In this document: piece after piece, positions 5,333-57,618 of the stretch
Position numbering within the stretch: the first letter of the stretch is position 1
How the letters are laid out: the number at the start of each line of letters is the position of its first letter
Origin: Intestinimonas butyriciproducens
GTDB lineage: Bacteria > Bacillota > Clostridia > Oscillospirales > Oscillospiraceae
Direction: 5' to 3'
DNA length: 64,000 nucleotides
Assembly: GCF_004154955.1 (NCBI RefSeq)
Contig: NZ_CP011524.1
Coordinates: forward strand, 1,550,001-1,614,000
The notes under the pieces: generated by a model
What the model saw: only the letters and a program-made list of their open reading frames with translations
What the model was told of the DNA's origin: nothing
The model's database searches: none
Made by a program: the position numbers and the translations under genes

Positions 5333-5719
5333 ATGAGCGGCAAACGATATTCTCGACAGAGAGAACTGATTTATCAGTGCCTGTTGCATACGAATCAGCA
5401 TCCCACTGCGGAGATGATCTATAGCTGGCTCAAGCCGGAAAACCCCAATTTGAGCTTAGGTACGGTCTACCGAAACCTGAACCTGCTCTCAGAGGAAGGA
5501 ATCATTGTGCGGATGCCCTTTCCGGTGGAGCGATATGACGCTGTTAAGGAGCCCCATCCACATTTCCGCTGCCGCAAATGCGGAGGCGTATACGACCTGG
5601 AGGGCTTGGAGTACGACCATGGGTTGGACGAGGAGGCGGCCAGGTGCAGCGGGCATGAGGTAGAGCGCCATGAGGTGGTTTTTTCCGGAATCTGTGCCCA
5701 TTGTGTCGAAAAGCATTGA
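5333..5719 (+). CDS. perR: Fur-family peroxide-type regulator (PerR-like)
   Basis: 128 residues. The N-terminal winged helix includes TAEMIYSWLKPENPNLSLGTVYRNLNLL (recognition helix) and the C-terminal half has the HPHFRCRKCGGVYDL metal/Zn segment and a second ICAHC pair, giving the four-Cys structural zinc site of PerR/Fur proteins. The ATG at 5333 is preferred over one at 5327 because GAGGAG abuts the earlier codon. Its neighbours, desulfoferrodoxin and rubrerythrin, are classic PerR targets in clostridia, so peroxide sensing is the best guess; Fur or Zur function cannot be excluded. Confidence 0.85.
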   Translation: MSGKRYSRQRELIYQCLLHTNQHPTAEMIYSWLKPENPNLSLGTVYRNLNLLSEEGIIVRMPFPVERYDAVKEPHPHFRCRKCGGVYDLEGLEYDHGLDEEAARCSGHEVERHEVVFSGICAHCVEKH

Positions 5720-5744
5720 TTTCCAATACAGAATATGGTAAAAT
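5716..5744 (+). promoter_or_regulatory. Promoter of the desulfoferrodoxin gene
   Basis: TTGATT at 5716-5721 overlaps the perR stop codon and TAAAAT lies at 5739-5744, a 17-base spacing. Confidence 0.55.
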
Positions 5745-5790
5745 TAGATTGTGTTAAAACACAAAAATTTTTTTAGGAGGTTATGTTGCC

Positions 5791-6162
5791 ATGGAACTGA
5801 AACTTTATCGTTGTGCGCACTGCGGCAATATCGCGTTCAAGCTGGTGGATAAGGGTGTGCCTCTGGTCTGTTGCGGCGAGCCCATGCAGGAGCTGAAGGC
5901 CAACGTCACCGACGGCGCTGTGGAGAAACATGTTCCCCAGATCACCCGTGACGGCGCGCATGTGACCGTGCAGGTGGGTTCCACCATTCACCCCATGCTC
6001 CCTGAGCACTATATCCAGATCATTGCGGCTGTCAGCGGCAATAAGGTGACCTTCCAGTTGCCCAAGCCCGGTGACGAGCCTGTCCTGAAGGTGGGAAGCA
6101 GCGAGCCTGTGACCGCTTACGAGTACTGCAATCTCCACGGCTTCTGGAAGGGCGAGGAATAA
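5791..6162 (+). CDS. dfx: Desulfoferrodoxin (superoxide reductase, 2Fe type)
   Basis: 123 residues. The N-terminal desulforedoxin domain has all four Fe-binding cysteines (CAHC at 8-11 and CC at 27-28). The C-terminal superoxide-reductase domain has the four His and one Cys of the catalytic Fe centre: EKHVP, STIHPMLPEHYI and CNLHGFW. The enzyme reduces superoxide to peroxide without releasing oxygen, which suits an anaerobe; peroxide would then pass to the rubrerythrin encoded next. A strong AGGAGG precedes the ATG. Confidence 0.95.
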   Translation: MELKLYRCAHCGNIAFKLVDKGVPLVCCGEPMQELKANVTDGAVEKHVPQITRDGAHVTVQVGSTIHPMLPEHYIQIIAAVSGNKVTFQLPKPGDEPVLKVGSSEPVTAYEYCNLHGFWKGEE

Positions 6163-6235
6163 GGCGTCCTGCGGCGCGGTGCGCCGAACCGGTACATAAA
6201 AAATAGATATTTTGATGAAGGGAGATTTATATCAT

Positions 6236-6769
6236 ATGGAACTGAAAGGCAGCAAGACGGAGGCCAATCTGTGGAAAGCGTTCGCCGGGGAGTCCCAGGC
6301 CCGCAACAAATATACTTATTTTGCCAGCGTAGCCCGCAAGGAGGGCTACGAGCAGATCGCAGCCATTTTTGAGGAGACCGCCGGCAATGAGAAGGAGCAC
6401 GCCAAGCTCTGGTTCAAGGCTCTGGGCGGCATCGCCACCACGGCTGAGAACCTGCTGGCCGCCGCCGAGGGTGAGCATGAAGAGTGGACCGAGATGTACA
6501 AGGAGATGTCCGAGACCGCCCGTGAGGAAGGTTTCCACGCTCTGGCCGATGCGTTTGCCGCTGTGGCCAAGATCGAGAAGAGCCATGAGGACCGCTATGT
6601 GAAGCTGGCCGAGAACCTCTCCAACAGCGAGGTGTTCAAGAGAGCTGAGGTCAAGGTGTGGTACTGCCGCAACTGCGGACACCTGGAGTACGGCGTAGAG
6701 GCCCCTGAGGTCTGCCCCGTCTGCGGTCATCCCCGCGCCTATTTTGAGATCAAGGCTGAGAATTATTGA
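6236..6769 (+). CDS. rbr: Rubrerythrin
   Basis: 177 residues: an N-terminal ferritin-like di-iron domain (ANLWKAFAGESQARNKYTYFA; EETAGNEKEHAKLW; a second E..H pair near KIEKSHEDRY) and a C-terminal rubredoxin domain with two CxxC knuckles (YCRNCGHLEYG and CPVCGHP). It is a peroxidase using rubredoxin-type electron transfer. The ATG at 6236 is taken over the upstream in-frame ATGs because GAAGGGAG lies between them. It sits 73 bases after dfx and ends at a strong terminator, so dfx-rbr is probably one transcript. Confidence 0.95.
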   Translation: MELKGSKTEANLWKAFAGESQARNKYTYFASVARKEGYEQIAAIFEETAGNEKEHAKLWFKALGGIATTAENLLAAAEGEHEEWTEMYKEMSETAREEGFHALADAFAAVAKIEKSHEDRYVKLAENLSNSEVFKRAEVKVWYCRNCGHLEYGVEAPEVCPVCGHPRAYFEIKAENY

Positions 6770-6790
6770 TCTGCAGCATTATCCATACGG

Positions 6791-6825
6791 GTGGCCCGCC
6801 GCATACTGCGGCGGGCCACCTTTTA
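6791..6825 (+). terminator. Rho-independent terminator after rubrerythrin
   Basis: Perfect 13-bp stem (6791-6803 with 6807-6819), 3-base loop, then CTTTT. Confidence 0.9.
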
Positions 6826-6932
6826 TCGCGGCGAGGGGAGCTTTTCGGGCAATTCCACCCTTTCCTTTTGGAGAAGGATGTGGTATGTTTATACATATCT
6901 AAAAATAGAACACTTTAATTGGGAGGTGCCTC

Positions 6933-7913
6933 ATGCCGGAGGAAATCATGCAAAATATCCATCGGATTCCCGTTCCCCTGCCGGGAAATCCGCTCAAGGA
7001 GCTCAACGCCTATCTGATTCGGGGGAAGGACCGTAATCTGCTCATCGACACGGGGTTCCGCCAGCCGGCCTGCCGGGAGGCCCTCTTCGCGGGGCTGAGA
7101 GAGCTGGGGCTGCGCCGTGGAGATGTGGACGTGCTGCTGACACACCTGCATTCGGACCACGCGGGACTGGCTCCGGAGGCGGCGGGGGAGACGGGAACGA
7201 TCTTTGTCAGCTCGGTGGACCGTCTCACGCTGGACAACATGGCGGAGCGCCAGAAGTACTGGGAAGAGGCGGACAACCGGTTCCGGGAGGAGGGATTTCC
7301 CATCTCCATGATGATGCAGATCAGGGACAAGAATCCCGCCCGCTCCATGGCTCCACCCACCGGGGGACATTATTCCAGCCTGGAGGACGGCGATGTGCTG
7401 GAGGCCGGGGACTACCGGTTGCAGTGCCTGCTGATGCCCGGGCACACCCCGGGCCAGATGTGCTTCTGGATGGAACGGGAGGGCTGCATGTTCCTGGGAG
7501 ACCACGTGCTTTTTGATATCACGCCCAATATTACCGCCTGGCCACGGATGCCGGACGCCCTTGGGTCCTATCTCAGGAGCCTGGAGAAGATCAGGGCATA
7601 TGACGTGAAATTGGCCCTGCCCGGTCATCGCCGGGGCGGAGATATGCACCTGCGGATCGACCAACTCCTCGAGCACCATAAGCGCCGCCTGGAGGAGGCC
7701 TTTTCCGCGGTAAAGAACCACCCGGGCCAGCCGGCCTATTTCCTGGCGGGAAAAATGACATGGAAGATCCGTGCCAGCTCCTGGGACACCTTCCCGGTGG
7801 CGCAGAAGTGGTTCGCAGTGGGGGAGTGTATGTCCCATCTGGATCACCTGATGGTGCAGGGACGCATACGCAAGGAGCTCCAGGGCGGAAAGGCGGCCTA
7901 TTTCGCCGTCTGA
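6933..7913 (+). CDS. MBL-fold metallo-hydrolase
   Basis: 326 residues with the metallo-beta-lactamase metal motif THLHSDHAGL (about residues 70-79), a downstream MPGHTPGQMCFW histidine motif, FLGDHVLF with its metal aspartate, and ALPGHRR carrying the last histidine. The C-terminal 80 residues form the helical extension seen in many stand-alone hydrolases. GGGAGGTG precedes the ATG at good spacing. The substrate is not evident; glyoxalase-II-like or quorum-lactonase labels would be guesses. The next gene follows after 28 bases and may be co-transcribed. Confidence 0.85.
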   Translation: MPEEIMQNIHRIPVPLPGNPLKELNAYLIRGKDRNLLIDTGFRQPACREALFAGLRELGLRRGDVDVLLTHLHSDHAGLAPEAAGETGTIFVSSVDRLTLDNMAERQKYWEEADNRFREEGFPISMMMQIRDKNPARSMAPPTGGHYSSLEDGDVLEAGDYRLQCLLMPGHTPGQMCFWMEREGCMFLGDHVLFDITPNITAWPRMPDALGSYLRSLEKIRAYDVKLALPGHRRGGDMHLRIDQLLEHHKRRLEEAFSAVKNHPGQPAYFLAGKMTWKIRASSWDTFPVAQKWFAVGECMSHLDHLMVQGRIRKELQGGKAAYFAV

Positions 7914-46129: not shown

Positions 46130-46159
46130 TTGATATAAACAAAAAAACAGCGGTATAAT
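46130..46159 (+). promoter_or_regulatory. Promoter of the RHS locus
   Basis: TTGATA (46130-46135), 18-base spacer, TATAAT (46154-46159), about 100 bases before the RHS start. Confidence 0.7.
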
Positions 46160-46263: not shown

Positions 46264-48501
46264 ATGTCAAGAAAAAGAATGTTCAAGACCGTAATATCCT
46301 GTACACTCATAATATCCATGTTGCTTCCGTATGTGGAGGCGGTTGTTCCCTCTTATTCCAATTCTGAAGTTTTGCAAGACGATGTATTCATTGAACCGTA
46401 TGCAGAAACAAACGCCGATTATTTTCACACTGGAATCGATGCTCCCGCAGACAGGGATATTGAGGAGCTGTTGGCCTGTACAGATATTTCTCTGGACGAC
46501 AAAGGCCGAACGGCGTCTGTCCATCTGGAGCAGAATACCGGTTTGACGCCAGGCGAAGTAAAAAGTCTTTTTGGCCAGATCACATATGCAAAAGCGAACA
46601 CGCTAGAGCTTGACCCTGTGTATGAGCTTCAGGCAGAAATCATGCAGATATATGAGATTCGTCCAGAGATTCAGATGATCCAGGATGGATTTGGATACAC
46701 ATATGAAGAAATCGACAGCGCCATTTTTTATCATGGAGATCTCGGAGCGCTCCAGAAGTCATTAAAGGGGTTCTTAACTGCGCAAAAATATTACAGCCTG
46801 AAGCCAGAGGAAAAATCCGACATTCTAGACCTAATATTCGGTGGGTATACCAATAGCCAGGCTTTCGCGGCATATATATCGAGCGGTATTTTGAACAAGC
46901 CAATACAGCAGCTTATTAGTGACAAGCAAACTGAGATCGTGGAGGATCGCGAACAGACAGAGGAAGTATTTGTTGAAGACGGTCAGGAAGAAGACCGGAA
47001 AGCGCTTGCGGCGCTGATGGGGGTCCCCTATATCACGCTGGATACATTTTTGGAGGGTTCTACCGAAAGTGTCGAATCGTTGAGAACCGCATATATACAG
47101 GCGCGCAACAATTTTTACAGAAGTACGAACGAACAAAAAGTACTGCCTGCCAACGCTGTGCAGGACGCAGGGGGAGGGTACACGCCGGAAGAAATATTGG
47201 ACGAACCGTTTAGCTATGACTCAATTGGCGAGGTGTCGATCAATCTTAACACAGGCTCCTTCAAATATTCAGAAAATGATTTGATACTTCCCAGGAAAAA
47301 CGGCTTGAGCCTGGAAATCAACAGAATATTTGACCCCGACAGCGCATGGGCGTATCTTCCTATGGGCGAATTCGACACAGACAGCACCAGCACTGCGGTG
47401 GAAGTGGGCTACCGGTGTTATTTATGGGAGAATTATGGAGCGGATGAGGAAGCAATATATTCCGAAATATCTGATATAACACGATATACATTTACGGATT
47501 CGAGTCTGAATTCCCTGGTGCTCAGTGAGAGAGGTTTCATAGCGTGTGATTACGAGCTTGCCGCCGCATATAAAATGCAGTTGGACAGCGAGGAAACATG
47601 GGTTGCCGCAGCAAGAGATCGTTATGGTGACAGCTGTATAATTGTAATTGAACCGGAGATCAGGCCGGTTGAACCTGCCTTTAGCGCTGCATTTTTTAAC
47701 TATGGACTTACCTATAATTATCTGATCAATGAATTTGGCATGGGGCACGGATGGAGACTCGGCTTTTCAACCATTGAAACCTACAGCGCTGGGTATGAGG
47801 AGCAAAAGCAAAGACTCATCATGCGGGATGGAACCCGTCACAATATAGAATCGGTTGTTGGGACGACAGTAGACTTTGAAAATTATACCCTGAAAGATAT
47901 TCGCCTTGAGAAAAAGAGCAACGGGTATTCCGGCGCAGTATACACCCTGTTTTACAAGGACGGAACAGTAGAATATTTTGACGCCCAAGGACGCAACATC
48001 GCAATCGTGGACCGTTTTGGGAATGCAATTACCTTGGAGTATACTTATAAAAACGCGGCAAGTAAAAGTGCTGTATCGCAAATCAAGATTACGGATACGC
48101 TTGGGAATATTGTTATAGTTAAAGAGGAGAATGTGGCGTCTGTAAGCTATGTAGATGGAATTAAGGATACGAAACATAGATACAACAAGCGCTGGACGCT
48201 GAGCCTAAACGGGGACATAGTGCGCAACTATTACAGCTACGAGATCTCCTCTGGCAGATATCTTGTCGGCGTACAGGATGAGCTTGGACAATACACGTAT
48301 TATAGCAGTGGGATCGGCTCTTACGATTACAACTGTTTCATTGATCAGAGTGCAACCAATGACGGAATAGGGAAAAAGGCGAGCATCAGCTATATAGATT
48401 ACCCCCAACGGATGCAGAAAAAGTTTTACGTCGGAAACCAAAAATGCCAGAATCGGCATAGCTGGTTATGTCGAAACACGCGCAATTTCCAGTTACTATG
48501 A
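46264..48501 (+). CDS. Secreted RHS/YD-repeat protein, 5' part (frameshifted)
   Basis: 745 residues as read. Sec signal peptide (RMFKTVISCTLIISMLLPYVEA), then about 290 residues with no recognised domain, then the entry to an RHS shell from about 330 (SINLNTGSFKYSENDLILPRKNGLSLEINRIFDP, GMGHGWRLGFSTIE, MRDGTRHNIE, GNAITLEYTYKN). From residue 727 the text becomes nonsense because the A-run 48440-48444 has five A; four A would read straight on into the next feature. Overall resemblance is to WapA-type contact toxins of Gram-positives. GATAAGGAGAGGATAAT precedes the ATG. GC is lower than the neighbouring genes. Confidence 0.85.
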   Translation: MSRKRMFKTVISCTLIISMLLPYVEAVVPSYSNSEVLQDDVFIEPYAETNADYFHTGIDAPADRDIEELLACTDISLDDKGRTASVHLEQNTGLTPGEVKSLFGQITYAKANTLELDPVYELQAEIMQIYEIRPEIQMIQDGFGYTYEEIDSAIFYHGDLGALQKSLKGFLTAQKYYSLKPEEKSDILDLIFGGYTNSQAFAAYISSGILNKPIQQLISDKQTEIVEDREQTEEVFVEDGQEEDRKALAALMGVPYITLDTFLEGSTESVESLRTAYIQARNNFYRSTNEQKVLPANAVQDAGGGYTPEEILDEPFSYDSIGEVSINLNTGSFKYSENDLILPRKNGLSLEINRIFDPDSAWAYLPMGEFDTDSTSTAVEVGYRCYLWENYGADEEAIYSEISDITRYTFTDSSLNSLVLSERGFIACDYELAAAYKMQLDSEETWVAAARDRYGDSCIIVIEPEIRPVEPAFSAAFFNYGLTYNYLINEFGMGHGWRLGFSTIETYSAGYEEQKQRLIMRDGTRHNIESVVGTTVDFENYTLKDIRLEKKSNGYSGAVYTLFYKDGTVEYFDAQGRNIAIVDRFGNAITLEYTYKNAASKSAVSQIKITDTLGNIVIVKEENVASVSYVDGIKDTKHRYNKRWTLSLNGDIVRNYYSYEISSGRYLVGVQDELGQYTYYSSGIGSYDYNCFIDQSATNDGIGKKASISYIDYPQRMQKKFYVGNQKCQNRHSWLCRNTRNFQLL

Positions 48502-51500
48502 AGGCTGGGAAGAGGCCGATGAGACTGCTGTCAGGCGGAATTTTAAGCAGTACGAATACGGCGACTACAGCAATATAGAAACGCCGTATACCACCAATTA
48601 TACGTATCAAACTGTAGTCTACACAAATATGTACCGCCATCCGTCGCCCGATGAACTGATTTGTATTTGGAAGAAGAATTGTGAAACATATACGTTTGAT
48701 AAGGACCATCTTCAAACAAATTACGAACGAAAAGCGTACCAGGATACGCAGTTTGAAGATGTAAATACAGATACAGACCTCCCGACAGACGTGGCGTCGC
48801 TGGTGCAAACGACAGCATATACCTATAATGACGATAATTTGCCAACCCAGCTGTCCGACCGGATCTACACACGTGGTTCAACGTCTTATATGCTGAGGGA
48901 ATATAACTTCACATATGATGATAAGGGCAATGTACTGACAGAAAAATATCCGAACGGTCAAACAACAACCTACACGTATAATGCATCCTATAGCATACCG
49001 TTGACGAAAACATATCAGCAAAACAGCTCGACCACGATCGTAGAGACAAATACCCTTACGTCAGATGGAAAAAACATTGCCTCCAGCGAAGTAAAATCCA
49101 ACGGCACGGTGGTGTCAAAGACGGGGTATACCTATGGTACGGATGGACGAGTGAGCCGCGTGCGGACCTACATCGACGCGACGCGGTATGTGGATCATCT
49201 GTACGCCTATGGAAACGCGGCGAATCTGACGGAACATAAGGTCACCGGTGTAAAAACTGTGACAGGCGGTACGGCTGCGGGATCTCCTGGCTACGCTGCC
49301 GGCACGATTGCAGAGGCGTTCCAGTATGACGGGCGGGGACGGCTTACACTGGTTAAAAATGGTAAATGGAGCAGCATAGAGATCGACTATGATCCGCTTG
49401 GTCGGATCACCTGCGTCACCTACCCGAACGGGTCGACGGAAAGCTATGATTACAGCGTTCATACCCATACCAGTACAGATACGCCCAATACAGTTACCTA
49501 TACGAACCGTGCGGGGACGGCGTTCCGGTATCGATACGACAAAGCAGGGAACCTGATAGAGGTATATGACGAGACAGGGAACCGTGCGCTGAAAAAGCTG
49601 GAATATGACTCGTCCAACCGCCCCATCAGTGAGATCATATACAGCACATATGGCCCTTCCGCACACACCAAATATCGTTATGATACGCTGGACCGTGTTA
49701 TAACCCTCCGGAAGGTGAACGCAAGCGGAGCCGCAACCTACGAGGAGAGCTACACGTATACCGACGGCGCGGGCAAGACGGAGCAAAGGATAGTGGGCGA
49801 TTCGTCTGCGCCGGCAATGACAAACACGTTCTACACCGACAATATGGGCAACACAGTCAAGCGGGGAAGGTACATCGGAAGCACGGAAACGCTGGAAACA
49901 TACCTGTATGATTACCTGGGGAATCGCATTCAGACGAAGCGGGATATTACGACGGGGAGCAGCGGCGTAGTGGTGGAGCAGGCGGCCTATAATTATGCGG
50001 GCCAGCCAACATCGGTGACAAATGCGGGCGGGAAGGTATATGCCTATCAATATGACTGGCTGGGGCGGCAGAGCTCCGGCACGGACCCGAAGAACAGCAG
50101 GACGCAGTACAGCTATGACGTGCTGGGGCGGCTTTTGGAGGAGAAAACGCCGTTCACCGTAATAGACGGGACGACCCTCTATGCCTCGACCCGGTATACC
50201 TATGACGCAGGCGGGAATATCACAACGCGGGCGGTGTCGAACGGCGCGGCAGAGTTGAACGCGTCGGCGAGCTGGTCGACGACGGAGTACGCATATGATT
50301 CCAGCGGGAATCTGGTACGGGTGACGAGGCATCCCAGCGGGTCCACATCGGTCTACACGCAGTACTATTACGACGCGGCGGGGAATTTGGCGCGGGTGTA
50401 TACCGGACAGAGCGCGCCTCTGACGGTCAGCGGCCTGGATCAAGTAAGCGGGACCCCGGTCAGTGTAACAAAGTATTCGTATGACGGCTATGGAAACCTG
50501 ATCTCCATGACGGATCCCCTGAATCGCCTGGAGACGTCAAGCTACGATCAGAACGGCCAGTTGCGGAGCAGGACGGACCGCAATGGCAACATCACAAGCT
50601 ATACGTATGACGAGCGCGGGAATACGACGGGGATCACAGTAAAGACGTCCGGCGGTCAGACGCTGGGCACACTGACAAATACATTCTCCAAGACGGGCCA
50701 GTTGGCGAGCACCAGCAGCGGGAGCCAGACGATTCAATATAAATACGACTCAGGCGGCCGGATGATTCAGGAGACGGCGGGGACGACGGTCAAAACGTAT
50801 ACATACAACTATCAGGACCTGTGCACCGGCGTTTCGATCAAGCAAAATGGAACGAGCAAGTATTACGCGACATACGAATACAACGCGCTGGGCCAGCTGC
50901 TGTCCATGACTGGAAAGACGTCGACAGGGACGGCAGCCACTTCTGTGTCGGCGACGTACAGCTATGATGCGAATGGAAATTGTACCAGCGTATGTTATCC
51001 CGATATTATTCCGGATGAAGGATATCAGACGTATAGCTATAATAACGCAAATCTAGTCACAAATACCACCATAGTGGGTGGGTATACATACGATTATACC
51101 TATCTGCTGGATGGAAATCAGTCGTCACTGTCGTCCGGCGGGAACACGATCCAGTATACTTATGACGGGATGGGGCGTCTGACAGAAGAGACGAGAACAC
51201 GAGGAAGCAGCACGGTGTATTCGAAGGCGTATGGATACGACCGGCGGGGCAACCGCACGTCTCTTACGACGGGGACTAGGAGCGTGAGCTATACCTACGA
51301 CGCGGGCAACCGACTTCTGAGCATGACGGACAGCACGGGCGGGAGTACAAAGACGACTGCGTACACCTATGATAACAACGGCAATACGCTTACTGAGAGT
51401 CAGGGGACAAACAGTATCGTCTATGGATACGATGGCTTTAACCGGCAGACCTCCGCTACTGTGAACGGGGTGAGCACCAGCTACACCTATGGTCCCGACG

Positions 51501-52693
51501 GACTGCGTACCGGGAAGGGATCAGTCTCTTATGTGTGGAGCGGCGGGGAGCTTGTACTGGAGGGAAATACCCGGTATTTCTATGGCCTGGATTTGATCGC
51601 AGAATTAACTGATTATGAATTTGATGAGGTATATTATTTTCATGATGCGCACGGAAATGTAGTCACGACGTCACACCGGGCGATCAATTATACCGCTAAT
51701 TCTGCACTGGAAGGGGAGGATCAGGGGGCGGTACAGCGGAAACCCGACCCAAGCGAATTTGAGTACATATTTAGCGGTCAGGAGTGGTATGACGCATTTG
51801 GCGTGAGGGACTCCAGCATCGTAAAGAGCGGTTTTGGCTATTGCGGAGAATATCAGGACAGGGAAACTCAAAATTACTACCTCAGGGCCAGATATTATGA
51901 CCCGGAAATTGGGAGATTTGTAAACAAAGATATTGTAAGAAATGGAGAAAATTGGTATATTTATTGTAATAATAACCCGGTGACATTTTGTGATACTTAT
52001 GGCCTTGAACCAATTGCAGTTCGAGCAACAATTGAAGGGTTAGGTGGAAACGTATCTTGGAATAATGAATATAAATATGCAACTGTAACTTTAGATGGGA
52101 ATTCGGTTTTTTTGCATGGAGGAGATTTTATAGGAACATATATTGACAATGGAGTAATGTATACCGATGACGAGATGCTATTTTTGTCATTGGGTTCTAG
52201 TTTCAGTCTAGGGAAGGGATGGTCTGGACGCATAGATAGGGGCGGAGCAGGAAAAGAATACATGAGACATGTTCATATCTTAAAAGACGGAAAGGAATGG
52301 ATACAAAACGAAGATGGGTCTCCACACGATCATCATAAAAATCCTCCGGGTTCTCCACCCCGAGGAGTCCTTAAAGAACTCAAGAAACAAAAGAATTGGG
52401 ATTGGGAGCAGAAAGAGGCAGATTGGATTAGTAAAATTGAAATTATAGCGGCAGATAGCGGATATTATTTTATTACGTATCCTAATGGGAGGCAGGTAAC
52501 GATTTACGAGGGTACTAACCCTATTTCTATATCGGCGTATCCAAGTAATCGAGACTTAAAAGGTTATTACTATGAAGCAACGTATACAGAAATAGCGTCT
52601 ATGCCTACAAATACAATGATTGTTCTGCCGTTTGTAAGTCCTACAACGGGAGTTATTCCAGGAGTGGTTCCGGTACCCATCCCTGTGCCATAA
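48446..52693 (+). CDS. RHS/YD-repeat core and C-terminal tip, 3' part
   Basis: Continuation of the RHS protein; from 48446 the frame reads ARIGIAGYVETRAISSYYEG and the first ATG is at 48629. More than twenty YD repeats (Y-x2-G-N-x3-x-Y-D type, such as YTYDERGNTTGI, YDGMGRLTEETR, YDYLGNRIQTKRD) form the shell. It closes with the conserved YYLRARYYDPEIGRFVNKDIV and NNPVTFCDTYGLEP, after which comes a variable tip of about 228 residues. Joined to the 5' part, the protein would have about 2,142 residues. It is expected to be exported and to enclose and deliver the tip. Confidence 0.9.
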   Translation, partial: ARIGIAGYVETRAISSYYEGWEEADETAVRRNFKQYEYGDYSNIETPYTTNYTYQTVVYTNMYRHPSPDELICIWKKNCETYTFDKDHLQTNYERKAYQDTQFEDVNTDTDLPTDVASLVQTTAYTYNDDNLPTQLSDRIYTRGSTSYMLREYNFTYDDKGNVLTEKYPNGQTTTYTYNASYSIPLTKTYQQNSSTTIVETNTLTSDGKNIASSEVKSNGTVVSKTGYTYGTDGRVSRVRTYIDATRYVDHLYAYGNAANLTEHKVTGVKTVTGGTAAGSPGYAAGTIAEAFQYDGRGRLTLVKNGKWSSIEIDYDPLGRITCVTYPNGSTESYDYSVHTHTSTDTPNTVTYTNRAGTAFRYRYDKAGNLIEVYDETGNRALKKLEYDSSNRPISEIIYSTYGPSAHTKYRYDTLDRVITLRKVNASGAATYEESYTYTDGAGKTEQRIVGDSSAPAMTNTFYTDNMGNTVKRGRYIGSTETLETYLYDYLGNRIQTKRDITTGSSGVVVEQAAYNYAGQPTSVTNAGGKVYAYQYDWLGRQSSGTDPKNSRTQYSYDVLGRLLEEKTPFTVIDGTTLYASTRYTYDAGGNITTRAVSNGAAELNASASWSTTEYAYDSSGNLVRVTRHPSGSTSVYTQYYYDAAGNLARVYTGQSAPLTVSGLDQVSGTPVSVTKYSYDGYGNLISMTDPLNRLETSSYDQNGQLRSRTDRNGNITSYTYDERGNTTGITVKTSGGQTLGTLTNTFSKTGQLASTSSGSQTIQYKYDSGGRMIQETAGTTVKTYTYNYQDLCTGVSIKQNGTSKYYATYEYNALGQLLSMTGKTSTGTAATSVSATYSYDANGNCTSVCYPDIIPDEGYQTYSYNNANLVTNTTIVGGYTYDYTYLLDGNQSSLSSGGNTIQYTYDGMGRLTEETRTRGSSTVYSKAYGYDRRGNRTSLTTGTRSVSYTYDAGNRLLSMTDSTGGSTKTTAYTYDNNGNTLTESQGTNSIVYGYDGFNRQTSATVNGVSTSYTYGPDGLRTGKGSVSYVWSGGELVLEGNTRYFYGLDLIAELTDYEFDEVYYFHDAHGNVVTTSHRAINYTANSALEGEDQGAVQRKPDPSEFEYIFSGQEWYDAFGVRDSSIVKSGFGYCGEYQDRETQNYYLRARYYDPEIGRFVNKDIVRNGENWYIYCNNNPVTFCDTYGLEPIAVRATIEGLGGNVSWNNEYKYATVTLDGNSVFLHGGDFIGTYIDNGVMYTDDEMLFLSLGSSFSLGKGWSGRIDRGGAGKEYMRHVHILKDGKEWIQNEDGSPHDHHKNPPGSPPRGVLKELKKQKNWDWEQKEADWISKIEIIAADSGYYFITYPNGRQVTIYEGTNPISISAYPSNRDLKGYYYEATYTEIASMPTNTMIVLPFVSPTTGVIPGVVPVPIPVP
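52010..52693 (+). other. RHS C-terminal tip: putative toxin domain
   Basis: The 228 residues after the core-closing DTYGLEP differ sharply in composition (AT-rich codons). They begin with a stalk-like IAVRATIEGLGGNVSWNNEYKYATVTL, followed by KEYMRHVHILKDGKEWIQ, DGSPHDHHKNPPGSPPRG and a Lys/Trp-rich helix KELKKQKNWDWEQKEADW, and a hydrophobic Pro-rich end. The clustered histidines and aspartates could form a metal-dependent active site, but I recognise no known toxin family. Position fits the polymorphic-toxin rule of core, tip, then immunity gene. Confidence 0.65.
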
Positions 52694-52706
52694 AGAGGAG
52701 AGAAAA

Positions 52707-53429
52707 ATGAAAAATGGGAAAAAAGAATTATATGTAAAAATAGTGCCCGAAAAAAATGAAATTGTCTGTTCCGGACTTAGCTTTGATGATTTTATTTGTT
52801 ATTTGCCTGAACCAATAGAAAATTTAATAAACATCGCAATAGATACCTGTGTAGAAGTTTCTGAAACAAACTATAAAAAAGGCTTTCCACTATTTGAGGG
52901 AAAGGCTGCAATAAAAAAAATTGCGGAACAAGAGTCATATTGTTTTGGGAACTTTTGTTTTGTGGACTATTGTTCTTCAGAACAAGTGGATCAATTAACG
53001 GCACAGGAAATTTCGGAACTGCTCTACTTAGGCCATATGTTTGAGCCGCTTCATTCACCGTTCTTTCCACAACTACAAAATCGATTTGCATATTTATCCC
53101 ATGATGATAGTTGGTACTGGAAGCTATATGCACAAAATATTGATGACTTTCTCTACATCCTATGCGGTCGACTGGCAAAATGCATAGAGTTACCTTTGCC
53201 GGATAATACTCAAATGATACATGAACAGTTGCTGTATAAGGCGAGAGAGGGGATACTAATTGATTTGAATGAAGCTGTTTGCAAAAACAATGGCATTGAT
53301 GTAAGACTATATACTATTGGAGAGTACGCAAATATGGATAAAATATTGAATTATCTCAGCCAGATAAAAAAAGAGGCAAATAAGACGAACTGGATTCACT
53401 TCAGGGGAAAGGAGTGGTCTATTTCATGA
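52707..53429 (+). CDS. Candidate immunity protein for the RHS tip
   Basis: 240 residues, AT-rich, 13 bases after the RHS stop with AAAGAGGAGAG before the ATG. It is cytoplasmic with no signal or helices spanning the membrane, and has an acidic/aromatic mixture (CFGNFCFVDYCSSEQVDQLTAQEISELLYLGHMFEPLHSPFFPQLQNRFAYLSHDDSWYWKLY). No match to a named immunity family is apparent. The call rests on position, base composition and size, as for WapI-like genes. Confidence 0.7.
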   Translation: MKNGKKELYVKIVPEKNEIVCSGLSFDDFICYLPEPIENLINIAIDTCVEVSETNYKKGFPLFEGKAAIKKIAEQESYCFGNFCFVDYCSSEQVDQLTAQEISELLYLGHMFEPLHSPFFPQLQNRFAYLSHDDSWYWKLYAQNIDDFLYILCGRLAKCIELPLPDNTQMIHEQLLYKAREGILIDLNEAVCKNNGIDVRLYTIGEYANMDKILNYLSQIKKEANKTNWIHFRGKEWSIS

Positions 53430-53513: not shown

Positions 53514-53566
53514 TACACCTACAATAACAACGGCAATATGCTCACTGAGAGTCAGAGAGCAAACGT
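53514..53566 (+). pseudogene. Orphan fragment of the RHS core
   Basis: The stretch TACACCTACAATAACAACGG... closely repeats 51364-51416 of the RHS core: it reads YTYNNNGNMLTESQRAN against YTYDNNGNTLTESQGTN. A TAG precedes it at 53508-53510 and the frame continues open to 53672. This is a leftover of an earlier or alternative RHS 3' end. The rest of 53430-53772 shows no gene. Confidence 0.8.
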
Positions 53567-53904: not shown

Positions 53905-54846
53905 GTGCGGGCTCCGGAAGAGGCATATGCGGTCGAGCGGTTTGAACAGGCGGCGGCGCTGCTACCGCATGAACTCAGACAAGGGGTGCAGAGGCTTTCG
54001 ACAGCAGAGAAGGCCAGAGCAGAAGAGTTTCGGCTTCGGGCGGGCAGACCGCCGATGGTTGCAGATCCGACGGGGGAACGGACGGTACCGGGCTGCGGTC
54101 AATGCCCGATCACCGCCGCCGATCTGACGGGAGTACTGGAGGTTGCCAGTCAGGCGTCGACACATACGGTATTGGACCGGGTAAAAAGCGGCTTTGTTAC
54201 TGTCCGGGGCGGATATCGGGTGGGTCTATGTGGAAGTGCGGTGATGAAGGATGGAGAAGTATGCAATGTAAAACAGATCTCTTCGCTTGCCATCCGGATC
54301 GCCCGGGAGGTCCCGGGGGCGGGAGCTGAGGTCTTGCCGCAGTTGTGGGAGGCAGGCACCCTGCAGAGTACGCTCCTTCTCTCGCCGCCCGGCGGAGGGA
54401 AGACGACTCTCCTGCGGGATTTGATTCGCCGCATTTCCGACGGTGTTGGAGGGCCGCCCCTTCGAGTGGGGGTGGTCGACGAGCGTGGGGAGCTTGCCGC
54501 CATGTATAACGGCGTCCCAATGACACAAGTGGGGATAAGAACGGATGTGATGGACGGGTGCCCCAAGGCGGCAGGTCTGATGATGCTGCTGCGCGGGATG
54601 AACCCTCAGGTCCTGGCGGCGGATGAGATCACGGCGCCGGAGGATGTGGAGGCGCTGGAGCAGGCAGCCGGCTGTGGAGTCGCCCTCTTGTGCAGCGCGC
54701 ACGGGGGGACGCCGGACGACCTGCGGCGGCGTCCTCTGTACCGCCGGCTTCTGGCAGGCGGTATCTTTCGCCAGGCGGTTCTCATCGAGCTGCGCGGGGG
54801 CAGGCGGAACTACCGAGTAGTGCCGCTGGAGGAGGGGTTGAGATGA
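53905..54846 (+). CDS. spoIIIAA: Stage III sporulation protein AA
   Basis: 313 residues from GTG. An AAA/secretion-ATPase fold with Walker A LLLSPPGGGKTTLLRDLIRRIS, VGVVDERGELAAMYNGVP, DVMDGCPKAAGLMMLLRGMNPQVLAADEITAPEDVEAL (Walker B) and LLCSAHGGTPDDLRRRPLY. It is the motor of the SpoIIIA-SpoIIQ channel between mother cell and forespore. GGGAGCTGGAAAAG precedes the GTG. First of eight overlapping or closely spaced genes; expected to be sigma-E driven, though I see no clear sigma-E box. Confidence 0.95.
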   Translation: MRAPEEAYAVERFEQAAALLPHELRQGVQRLSTAEKARAEEFRLRAGRPPMVADPTGERTVPGCGQCPITAADLTGVLEVASQASTHTVLDRVKSGFVTVRGGYRVGLCGSAVMKDGEVCNVKQISSLAIRIAREVPGAGAEVLPQLWEAGTLQSTLLLSPPGGGKTTLLRDLIRRISDGVGGPPLRVGVVDERGELAAMYNGVPMTQVGIRTDVMDGCPKAAGLMMLLRGMNPQVLAADEITAPEDVEALEQAAGCGVALLCSAHGGTPDDLRRRPLYRRLLAGGIFRQAVLIELRGGRRNYRVVPLEEGLR

Positions 54847-55358
54847 TCCGGTGGATTGGAGCGCTCCTCCTGATGGCGGGCGCGGCAGGTCTGGGCTTAG
54901 GCGCGGCGGCACAGCTTCGGACAAGAGTGGCCAGTCTGCGCTCCCTGGTGGGGGCCCTGGGTCAACTGGAGAGGGAGCTTACGTTTCGCCTTACGCCGAT
55001 GCCGGAGCTGATGGAGCGGCTGGCACGGCAGTCACAGGGGCCGGCGGCCTATCTGTTCGCACACTGCAGGGACCACCTCTGGGAGCTGGGCGAAAAGAGC
55101 TTTGGCCAGCTATGGAGAGAGGCGCTGGACGGCGAACCTGACCTCCTACTGGACGAACGGGAAAGTCAGATCCTGCTCGAGTTGGGCGAAGTATTGGGGA
55201 GATATGACGTGGAAGGACAGAGCGGGGCCCTGCGGAATTCGGTGCTGGAGCTGGGGCGATGTCTCGCCGGGGCGGAAGAAGAGCAGCGGAGGCTGGGAAG
55301 GGTCTACACCACGCTGGGACTGGGCTCCGGGGCCATGCTGGTTATTCTGTTGTTATGA
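54843..55358 (+). CDS. spoIIIAB: Stage III sporulation protein AB
   Basis: 171 residues, type-II-secretion F-like. N-terminal helix MIRWIGALLLMAGAAGLGLGAA, then LRSLVGALGQLERELTFRLTPMPELMERLA and the C-terminal EEEQRRLGRVYTTLGLGSGAMLVILLL anchor, all typical of SpoIIIAB. ATGA overlap with spoIIIAA. Confidence 0.95.
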   Translation: MIRWIGALLLMAGAAGLGLGAAAQLRTRVASLRSLVGALGQLERELTFRLTPMPELMERLARQSQGPAAYLFAHCRDHLWELGEKSFGQLWREALDGEPDLLLDERESQILLELGEVLGRYDVEGQSGALRNSVLELGRCLAGAEEEQRRLGRVYTTLGLGSGAMLVILLL

Positions 55359-55388
55359 CTGATATCAATGCGGGGATGTGGAGAAGGC

Positions 55389-55583
55389 ATGAACGTAGAC
55401 CTCATATTCAAAATTGCGGCGATCGGGATACTGGTGTCGGTGCTCAACCAGGTGCTCACTCGGTCCGGGCGGGACGAGCAGGCCACCATGACCACACTGG
55501 CGGGTCTTGTGGTGGTTCTCATGATGGTGGTCCAGGAGATCAGCGATCTCTTCAACCTGGTAAAGAACCTGTTTGGGCTGTAG
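55389..55583 (+). CDS. spoIIIAC: Stage III sporulation protein AC
   Basis: 64 residues, two membrane helices: MNVDLIFKIAAIGILVSVLNQVLTRSGRDEQATMTTLAGLVVVLMMVVQEISDLF. This matches SpoIIIAC closely. GTGGAGAAGGC lies before the ATG at 55389; the frame extends seven codons further without a ribosome site. Confidence 0.95.
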   Translation: MNVDLIFKIAAIGILVSVLNQVLTRSGRDEQATMTTLAGLVVVLMMVVQEISDLFNLVKNLFGL

Positions 55584-55586
55584 TCT

Positions 55587-55973
55587 ATGCCGGATATGGT
55601 AAAGATCGCGGCCATTGCGGTGGCCGCCGCACTGTGCGCAGTGGTGGTCAAAAAGAATGTGGCCGAGCTGGGGATGGTGCTGGCGCTGTGCGCCGGAGCG
55701 ATCATCCTGAGCTGCTCGCTGGGAGCGCTGGAGGGAGTCAAGGAGCTGATGGACACCCTGGCGGATACGGCGGGACTCTCGCCTGCGGTATTGGCGCCCG
55801 TTGTCAAAACAGTAGGGATCGCAGTGCTGACCAGAGTCTCGGCAGAGCTCTGCCGGGACGCGAAAGAGGGGGGGATTGCCGCGTTCGTAGAGACGGCGGG
55901 CGCGGCGGCGGCGCTGCTTGTGTCTCTTCCTCTATTGAAGACGGTGTTGAGTATGGTGACAGGGCTCCTATAG
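55587..55973 (+). CDS. spoIIIAD: Stage III sporulation protein AD
   Basis: 128 residues, four helices. MPDMVKIAAIAVAAALCAVVVKKNVAELGMVLALCAGAIIL and LAPVVKTVGIAVLTRVSAELCRDAKEGGIAAFVETAGAAAAL are family hallmarks. Begins 4 bases after spoIIIAC. Confidence 0.95.
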   Translation: MPDMVKIAAIAVAAALCAVVVKKNVAELGMVLALCAGAIILSCSLGALEGVKELMDTLADTAGLSPAVLAPVVKTVGIAVLTRVSAELCRDAKEGGIAAFVETAGAAAALLVSLPLLKTVLSMVTGLL

Positions 55974-56005
55974 CGGCGTCCGGCCGGAGGGAAGAGGGGC
56001 GACGG

Positions 56006-57127
56006 ATGACGGGAATACATAGGAAAATTAAAAAAATTCTGATGCTGATCCTTTTCACCTGCCTTTTTGTTCTTCCGGCGGCGGCATCCTCATCTGAGGA
56101 CGTATTGGACGAGCAGTCCAAGGTGCTGGGGCTGGACAAACTGGCAGAGGCGGCGGGCGAGTACAGCCCCGGAGATACTGTGACTGGGGTGGATCTGGAT
56201 GCCGGGCTTCAGGATTTGTTGGATACCGGCAGCGACCAATTGGCGGGTGTCCTCCGCAAGGCGGTGCGGAGCGGTGTGCTGCTTTTGACCGTGGTGCTCT
56301 TGTGTTCTCTCGCGCAGGGAACGTGCGAGGCCATTGGAGATCCCGGGGGACTTCAGGTAGTTCCGCTGGTGGAGGCGCTGGCCATCACGGCCATTTCCGT
56401 CGCAGATGTCCATTCCCTGATTGGAATGGGGAGAGAGGCGCTGGACAATATGACCGCTTTTTCCAAGATACTGCTGCCTACCATGGCGGTGGCCACGGCT
56501 GCCAGCGGGGCGCCCGGCGGGGCGGCGGCCAGACAGATGGCTACCATGCTCTTCTCCACGGTGCTGATGAGCCTGATCACCAAGCTGCTCCTACCCCTTG
56601 TGTATGGGTATATTGCCGCTTGTGTGGCCCATGCGGCGGTGGGGAACGAGGGGCTCAAGCGCATTGCCGGGGTGCTCAAGTGGACGGTCACCTCGATCCT
56701 TACAGTATTGCTGTTGGTATTTGTGGGCTATCTCACAGTCAGCGGGGTCATTGCAGGGACGGCGGATGCAGTGGCGGTCAAGGCGGCCAAATTTACGGTC
56801 TCAAGCATGGTGCCTGTGGTGGGCGGTATCCTTTCCGACGCGGCGGAGACCGTTCTGGCCGGCGCAGGAATTTTGAAAAATGCGGTGGGGGTGTTCGGCA
56901 TGCTGGTGATTCTCTCCATGTGTGTGGTCCCTTTCCTGCAACTGGGGATACATTACCTGGCCTATAAGCTGACCGCCGCCCTGGCGGCCACGGTGGCGGA
57001 TGGGAGGACCTCCGGACTGATCGACGGTCTTGGCGGTGCATTCGGACTCATCCTGGGTATGACGGGAGCTTCCGCAATGCTGCTCTTGGTATCCATGGTA
57101 TCGGCAGTGTCTATGGTGACGCCATGA
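56006..57127 (+). CDS. spoIIIAE: Stage III sporulation protein AE
   Basis: 373 residues with an N-terminal signal (IKKILMLILFTCLFVLPAAA) and about seven membrane helices. FSKILLPTMAVATAASGAPGGAAARQMATMLFSTVLMSLITKLLLPLVYGYIA and VAVKAAKFTVSSMVPVVGGILSDAAETVLAGAGILKNAVG are the conserved SpoIIIAE core. GAAGAGGGGCG precedes ATG 56006; the long open frame upstream overlaps other genes and is not coding. Confidence 0.96.
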   Translation: MTGIHRKIKKILMLILFTCLFVLPAAASSSEDVLDEQSKVLGLDKLAEAAGEYSPGDTVTGVDLDAGLQDLLDTGSDQLAGVLRKAVRSGVLLLTVVLLCSLAQGTCEAIGDPGGLQVVPLVEALAITAISVADVHSLIGMGREALDNMTAFSKILLPTMAVATAASGAPGGAAARQMATMLFSTVLMSLITKLLLPLVYGYIAACVAHAAVGNEGLKRIAGVLKWTVTSILTVLLLVFVGYLTVSGVIAGTADAVAVKAAKFTVSSMVPVVGGILSDAAETVLAGAGILKNAVGVFGMLVILSMCVVPFLQLGIHYLAYKLTAALAATVADGRTSGLIDGLGGAFGLILGMTGASAMLLLVSMVSAVSMVTP

Positions 57128-57618
57128 TGGAATTGTTGCGGCAGTGGCTGGTTGGGATCACCTGCGCAGCTATGATCGTGGCGCTGGCGGACAGTCTTAC
57201 ACCGTCTGGTACCGTGAGGAAGATCGGGAGGATGGCGGGAGGCTTATTGCTCCTGGTTGCTGTGGTCCAGCCGGTCCTGCATGTGGATTTCAGCGTTCTG
57301 GCAGCGTCCGCCGTCCAGATAGAGCTGGAGAGTACGCAGAATGAGCTGGAAAAAACTGATTTGGAACTGATGAAAACCATCATAGGAGAGAAGACGGGCG
57401 CATATATTCTGGACAAGGCGGAAGCACTGGGGGTCCCCTGCAAGAGGGTGACCGTAACATGCACAGTAGGAGAGGACGGCGTGCCCTATCCCTCCGCAGT
57501 GTCCATCACGGGAGCGCCTGGCGGGGAGGAGAGACGCCTCCTGGCACGTATCATAGAGGCGGACTTGGCGATTCCCGAGGAATGTCAAACTTACGAAAGC
57601 GGGGATGGAGCATCATGA
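57124..57618 (+). CDS. spoIIIAF: Stage III sporulation protein AF
   Basis: 164 residues. Two N-terminal helices (LRQWLVGITCAAMIVALADSLTPSGTVRKIGRMAGGLLLLVAVVQPVL), then a soluble ring-building domain. TPSGTVRKIGRM and GGLLLL match SpoIIIAF. ATGA overlaps on both sides. Confidence 0.93.
   Translation: MMELLRQWLVGITCAAMIVALADSLTPSGTVRKIGRMAGGLLLLVAVVQPVLHVDFSVLAASAVQIELESTQNELEKTDLELMKTIIGEKTGAYILDKAEALGVPCKRVTVTCTVGEDGVPYPSAVSITGAPGGEERRLLARIIEADLAIPEECQTYESGDGAS

Follow-up and report, generated by a model that had tools for sequence, protein, structure and literature searches.

The window, a 64,000-nucleotide stretch of Intestinimonas butyriciproducens DNA (contig NZ_CP011524.1, positions 1,550,001 to 1,614,000), contains an RHS toxin cassette with an undescribed domain in its C-terminal tip. 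The gene that follows the tip encodes a 240-residue protein, here called the partner, and by position alone this protein is a natural and plausible candidate for the immunity protein. We give about an even chance to the reading in which the segment is an exchangeable RHS tip cassette, the central domain of the tip is its toxic part and the product of the next gene is the immunity protein against that domain. The features of the locus, which include two open reading frames (ORF A and ORF B), are as follows.

46264 to 48501, + strand: ORF A (frame 1), the front part of the RHS protein, 745 amino acids, with a signal-peptide-like start
48398 to 48498, + strand: overlap of the ORF A and ORF B reading frames, with a frameshift somewhere inside
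48629 to 52009, + strand: ORF B, RHS repeats and RHS-associated core
52010 to 52690, stop codon ending at 52693, + strand: tip, 227 residues plus stop, directly behind the RHS core
52010 to 52135, + strand: tip residues 1 to 42, the stalk, which weakly resembles the copper amine oxidase N1 domain (PF07833 below cut-off)
52202 to 52399, + strand: tip residues 65 to 130, conserved His-rich domain (RHxH-NxDG-HD), the candidate toxic domain, with relatives in three genomes
52400 to 52693, + strand: tip residues 131 to 227 plus stop, the tail; its start is common with the G771 tip and its end is hydrophobic and proline-rich
52707 to 53429, + strand: partner gene, 240 amino acids, candidate immunity protein of an unnamed Bacillota family (homology searches; AlphaFold2 model)
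53514 to 53564, + strand: RHS-core remnant behind the partner, 51 bp, 86% identical to window positions 51362 to 51412 (pairwise blastn, E = 1.5e-12)

A first-pass annotation, made from the sequence alone, had described an RHS core followed by a tip and a small gene, and this layout is real. ORF B, which spans 48629 to 52693 (+) with the tip included, holds RHS repeats (Pfam RHS_repeat, E = 8.5e-56) and an RHS-associated core at its residues 1054 to 1126 (NCBIfam TIGR03696, E = 1.9e-19). The tip lies directly behind the core as annotated, and is 227 residues plus a stop codon in length rather than the 228 residues first counted. The 240-residue gene was also placed correctly: it starts at 52707, 13 bases past the tip stop at 52693 and on the same strand, behind a purine-rich agaggagag. 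The gene is intact, with a plausible ribosome-binding site.

The guanine plus cytosine (GC) content of the tip (40.2%) and of the partner gene (35.3%) is far from that of the 10-kb flanks (59.6% and 59.8%) and of the whole window (57.3%). Of 3129 sliding windows as long as the tip-partner pair, just 7 have a lower GC content, and all seven overlap the pair. Values below the flanks are also seen at the front of the RHS gene (45.1%) and in the RHS core (53.8%), so that the pair, AT-rich as first described, is the extreme of a low-GC island and not the sole foreign part. The remnant behind the partner (remnant YTYNNNGNMLTESQRAN against core YTYDNNGNTLTESQGTN) fits an exchange of tips. Among 60 near relatives, the window's own genome is the sole true match for the central domain of the tip and the only one with a member of the partner family. 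The low GC content, the tight spacing, the core remnant and the absence from the other 59 relatives together point to a tip and partner that were imported together as a cassette.

We searched the tip and the partner against family, structure and phage libraries. The first residues of the tip weakly resemble the copper amine oxidase N1 domain: a PF07833 match at tip residues 3 to 39 covers 37 of the 108 profile positions (E = 8.2e-4, 19.7 bits), below the curated cut-off of 24.2 bits. The model of this stalk aligns with Escherichia coli amine oxidase (1spu) over 40 residues (VIA-align Z 4.2, root-mean-square deviation 2.0), in a part of the model with a predicted local distance difference test score (pLDDT) below 55. 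This start of the tip is a structural part and not the toxic one. The His/Asp-rich centre reported at first pass is present (HVHI at residues 87 to 90; DGSPHDHH, with HDHH at 106 to 109), as is the Lys/Trp helix, in the form of a helix predicted at residues 118 to 128 in the structure model with KNWDW from residue 128. The annotation had named no family for either protein, which agrees with the libraries for the tip centre and the partner; the amine-oxidase-N1-like start of the tip is new. In hidden Markov model (HMM) searches neither protein gave a match above the Pfam or NCBIfam family cut-offs. The tip had no match in NCBIfam or PADLOC at E ≤ 1, and the partner had none in these two libraries at E ≤ 1 and none in Pfam below E = 0.069, the value of a TGF-beta propeptide match that was dropped. 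The best PHROGs match of tip and partner reached E = 0.044, and the PHROGs matches at E = 0.044 to 0.097 were discarded. Among PDB sequences the tip had two matches (best E = 0.054), both to unrelated proteins.

The central domain recurs in other Bacillota. When 398 phylum genomes were searched with the entire tip, six others matched: G370 at residues 66 to 133 (43%, E = 2.4e-8), and five in the stalk part alone, a class assigned from the match range (tip residues 2 to 61), with the protein itself read for G038 only. A domain-profile search of 391 genomes of the class found G771 and G475, together with a spurious match in G784. Three smaller searches (10, 16 and 16 genomes) yielded no further genome, no relatives of the tip were found among viral contigs, phages and plasmids, and a contig scan with two narrow peptide patterns confirmed 1 of 130 stretches, on the G370 contig. 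Matches that we dropped were those in G784 (E = 5e-4, 33 positions), which sits within an ftsW-like ORF but is read in a different frame, in G002 (E = 0.0095), which is short and outside any sensible gene, and in the Comamonadaceae plasmid H9 (E = 0.7), which falls within an unrelated gene. The best match of the domain to a PDB sequence, neuropilin at E = 0.55, was likewise rejected.

In G370 (locus L012) and G475 (L028) the central domain stands behind an RHS core in one open frame, and the same tip domain is carried there by different RHS proteins. G771 (L027) has a broken copy of the domain behind a broken RHS-core end, and also an intact tail at the contig edge where the domain is cut off except for its end. 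The first-pass annotation had suggested looking for the tip on other RHS cores, and three other genomes indeed have RHS proteins that bear the domain, followed by different tails. The core similarity of these relatives exceeds that of shuffled sequences (z 10.9 to 14.3). Thirteen residues are identical in all four genomes (L67, W71, R74, I75, H87, H89, N100, D102, G103, H106, D107, P117 and V120), and seven of the 13 are R, H, H, N, D, H and D. In the model, tip residues 61 to 130 form a block with pLDDT 64 to 81 that suggests strands followed by a helix. With its conserved H, N, D and R residues, the central domain is the foremost candidate for the part that is toxic.

The partner yields a good AlphaFold2 model (pLDDT 84.6, predicted template modelling score 0.85). 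Foldseek returned no PDB match to this model at E ≤ 0.001 (best 0.13), VIA-align gave no Z above 3.1 against 1000 chains, and no PDB sequence matched the partner, either by its sequence or in an HMM search with its profile. Two of ten relatives of the partner weakly matched the LoaP antiterminator, with E = 3.9e-5 and 0.009 and scores that reached no more than 23.9 bits where the cut-off is 125; we put these matches down to chance, although the stronger one is not negligible.

Relatives of the partner, at 20 to 33% identity, occur in 6 other of 398 phylum genomes (E ≤ 1e-6) and in 3 other of 226 class genomes (E ≤ 1e-5), and further in 8 plasmid records (some of which are chromosomes or contaminated), 5 phage records and one virus contig. 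On a Clostridioides difficile plasmid (L005, 6001 to 6741) two small genes whose starts look like a signal peptide or a membrane segment precede the relative, and on the virus contig (L054, 5001 to 5741) small genes flank the relative, beside a terminase-like gene. A spread of this kind, over a C. difficile plasmid, a virus contig, scattered genomes and one of 60 near relatives, is as would be expected for a mobile immunity gene. Two of the records (L010, CP065518.1, and L009, NZ_CP030101.1) are probably contaminated or mislabelled: one named as a Stenotrophomonas rhizophila plasmid agrees in gene order with a plasmid record of Lysinibacillus fusiformis, and a Listeria 'plasmid' of 2.9 Mb is the size of a chromosome.

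In the reading we propose, a secreted, WapA-like RHS polymorphic toxin from a Bacillota bacterium would carry the segment as its exchangeable tip cassette. Its RHS shell, which is seen by profile, would be exported by means of the signal peptide and would present the tip, a carrier use taken over from known RHS proteins. The tip would consist of a short stalk, the conserved His/Asp/Asn-rich domain (about residues 65 to 130) and a tail. Of these the conserved domain would most likely be the killing part, probably a nuclease-like enzyme, with R74, H87, H89, N100, D102, H106 and D107 as candidate active-site residues. The partner, probably recruited from an orphan Bacillota family, would bind and block the killing domain inside the producer, and the RHS-core remnant behind it may be a trace of tip replacement. 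As the large gene is frameshifted in this strain, the toxin may be silent and the immunity gene still useful.

Several observations weigh against this proposal, the first of them structural. The model of the tip is poor overall (pLDDT 46.3). The central domain has no fold match, with nothing from Foldseek at E ≤ 0.001 and a weak best VIA-align Z of 4.4, so that the enzymatic reading is drawn from the residue pattern. The best structural matches of the tip (PUR-alpha, polo-box and ToxS; Z 3.8 to 4.4) were treated as uninformative.

The second concerns the tails. In G370 the central domain is followed directly by Tox-WTIP (PF15654; E = 5e-18, 65.5 bits against a cut-off of 25), itself called a toxin, and so the domain could be accessory, or else one of two toxic parts. 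Tox-WTIP is a predicted pore-forming tip of RHS and PVC toxins; Zhang et al. 2012 (PMC3482391) describe it as a pore-forming toxin with two membrane helices and the motifs RxxR and Wx[ST]IP, and name no immunity protein there. An RHS tip can be a pore-former, as PMC10684867 reports for Tse5. We consider it rather unlikely that the central domain is an accessory module, for pre-toxin, folding or entry functions, and that the killing is done by a variable C-terminal tail, which would be the Tox-WTIP pore-former in G370, another tail in G475 and a shared ITYPNxxQV tail, perhaps membrane-active, in the window and G771. Such a division would account for a domain that stays constant while the tails vary, the G475 tail differing from those of the other tips, and all four tails end in hydrophobic stretches (mean hydropathy 1.65 at window tip residues 204 to 222). 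The window and G771 tails are 35% identical over 49 residues (tip 115 to 163; pairwise E = 2e-10). The window tip, unlike that of G370, has no match to the Tox-WTIP profile at E ≤ 5 and no Wx[ST]IP in its tail, and its last 45 residues are no closer to the two Tox-WTIP tails than shuffled sequences are (z −0.6 and −0.1; 1000 shuffles per pair), so that a sequence link between them failed. The same 45 residues show no detectable likeness to any of the other tails (z −0.6 to 2.0) and no helix in the model; moreover, the partner is predicted to be soluble and globular, which would be unusual for immunity to a pore-former.

Tox-WTIP was found in only two of 329 genomes, G370 and G241. In G241 it is preceded, at the place of the central domain, by a weak match to Ntox37 (Bacterial toxin 37, PF15535; E = 8.1e-4, below cut-off), which again would suit an accessory module in that position. 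PMC3482391, however, counts Ntox37 among the toxin domains and describes it as all-beta, with [KR] and Hx[DH] residues. Both Ntox37 and the window domain are small and His-rich, and Hx[DH] may be compared with RHVH in the window, a likeness we treat as a lead only; the window tip has no match to the Ntox37 profile at E ≤ 5, and hhalign gives no profile alignment with the G241 member (probability 0.7%). A 35-residue piece of the G771 tip matched DUF6367 (PF19894) at E = 0.0059 (16.8 bits, cut-off 25), and a search for the DUF6367 family in 71 genomes and 14 controls gave no match anywhere. We found no paper on DUF6367, which does not show that there is nothing in print.

The third group of observations concerns the partners. 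A small gene lies on the same strand behind the tip in all four genomes, at a distance of 13 bases in the window, about 13 in G771 (start uncertain), 3 in G475 and 49 in G370; the layout of tip and small gene recurs, and the partner family does not. The G771 partner is DUF4085-like (E = 2.3e-5, 24.6 bits against a cut-off of 24.1), the G475 partner weakly so (E = 0.022), and the two align with one another over 29 residues (E = 0.004); the G370 partner has 219 residues and no Pfam match. All three belong to other families than the window partner, which makes three unrelated families in all, and where the first-pass annotation had looked to co-occurrence of the pair for support, the other tips have partners of these other families. 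Against the profile of the window partner no likeness was detected for the G475 and G370 partners, the G771 partner lying outside this comparison. We found no paper that links a polymorphic toxin with DUF4085, which likewise does not show that none exists.

Conversely, members of the window partner's family were found without an RHS gene nearby in all 16 of the neighbourhoods read, and no second RHS tip with a partner of this family occurs among them. We checked for RHS genes by inspecting ORF lists or gene tables by eye; L010 and L011 have nearly the same neighbourhood, L037 is a broken copy, and L009 (gene table empty), H7 and the phage records H16 to H20 lie outside the 16. In several Bacilli relatives are at or near ddl-murF (L007, L008, L010, L011, L035, L036 and L038), several of them behind an ftsW/rodA-like gene. 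The first-pass annotation had proposed a gene dedicated to the tip and had named wide occurrence of that gene without an RHS tip as a refutation; at the level of the family, with its 20 to 33% identity, this is what the 16 neighbourhoods show. These neighbourhoods, and the other partners of the related tips, would be expected if the downstream gene were an orphan of unrelated function placed here by recombination, with the true immunity gene lost or elsewhere. We regard this as possible but on the unlikely side, given the 13-base spacing, the equally extreme GC content, the distribution among near relatives and the core remnant directly behind the gene; in addition, immunity families with orphan members are known from the account of polyimmunity loci in PMC3482391. 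Of the undescribed toxin-immunity pair first proposed, the undescribed tip domain on an RHS toxin stands, and the role of the partner as its immunity protein is only plausible, its family being found without RHS.

Finally, the RHS gene is split by a frameshift that the first-pass annotation had not seen. The signal-peptide-like stretch is on ORF A, where residues 10 to 28 are the most hydrophobic 19-residue stretch (mean hydropathy 2.06), and the RHS core and tip are on ORF B in another frame, so that delivery of the tip may fail in this strain. The stop of ORF A (frame 1) falls inside the overlap with the frame of ORF B (frame 2), which is open from 48398 on for 1431 residues. The shift, at 48398 to 48498, may be a mutation, an assembly error or a programmed shift. 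It seems to us unlikely that the locus is a decayed RHS relic in which neither gene functions now. Two reading frames and a truncated core copy behind the partner are what decay would leave, but 1431 codons of ORF B have stayed open, the partner gene has remained whole behind a plausible ribosome-binding site, an error of assembly could account for a single shift, and recombination can revive silent tips (PMC3967940).

One RHS locus of G771 (L027, positions 1 to 1550) contains a tip twice: behind a tip tail with its partner gene come an RHS-core end and then a broken copy of a nearly identical tip. On the L030 contig, the stretch from 5579 to 7075, some 4 kb downstream of the first tip, holds a further RHS-core end, a different tip and, behind that, a different small gene.

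Compared with the RHS/WapA toxins and their RhsI/WapI immunity proteins, the locus agrees in its repeats and core, a putative secreted-type start, a variable low-GC tip, a small gene behind the tip and a core remnant after it. It differs in that tip and partner match no named toxin or immunity family, the partner family otherwise occurs without RHS, and the RHS gene is frameshifted. Orphan rhs-CT/rhsI modules of Salmonella also combine a tip, an immunity gene and core fragments in one locus; PMC3967940 describes them as functional, with spare tips activated by recombination. Unlike these, the window has a remnant of only 51 bp, and a second intact tip was not found behind it.

If the pair works as proposed, its tip domain, undescribed so far and marked by a tight group of conserved polar residues, would be joined by a new immunity family whose fold is confidently predicted and has no clear counterpart in the solved structures. 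This would also account for the unnamed Bacillota family that occurs beside cell-wall synthesis genes and on mobile elements. As systems of an RHS tip and an immunity gene are well known, the pair would be new but the kind of system would not. A bolder extension, which we consider improbable, is that the RHxH-NxDG-HD domain founds a new family of enzymatic toxins with interchangeable tails, a pore-former among them, which would make some tips double-acting, and that the partner family of plasmids, phages and the ddl-murF region of Bacilli is an unrecognised, widespread orphan immunity family against this domain and its kin.

Upstream of ORF A, a promoter-like site with 11 of 12 matches lies at 46130 to 46159; the scan gave 13 such sites in all against 14.3 in shuffled sequences, which is no excess. 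The genes at 53905 to 57618, behind the core remnant, resemble the spoIIIA sporulation operon in their sequence features, and transporter genes precede the RHS locus.

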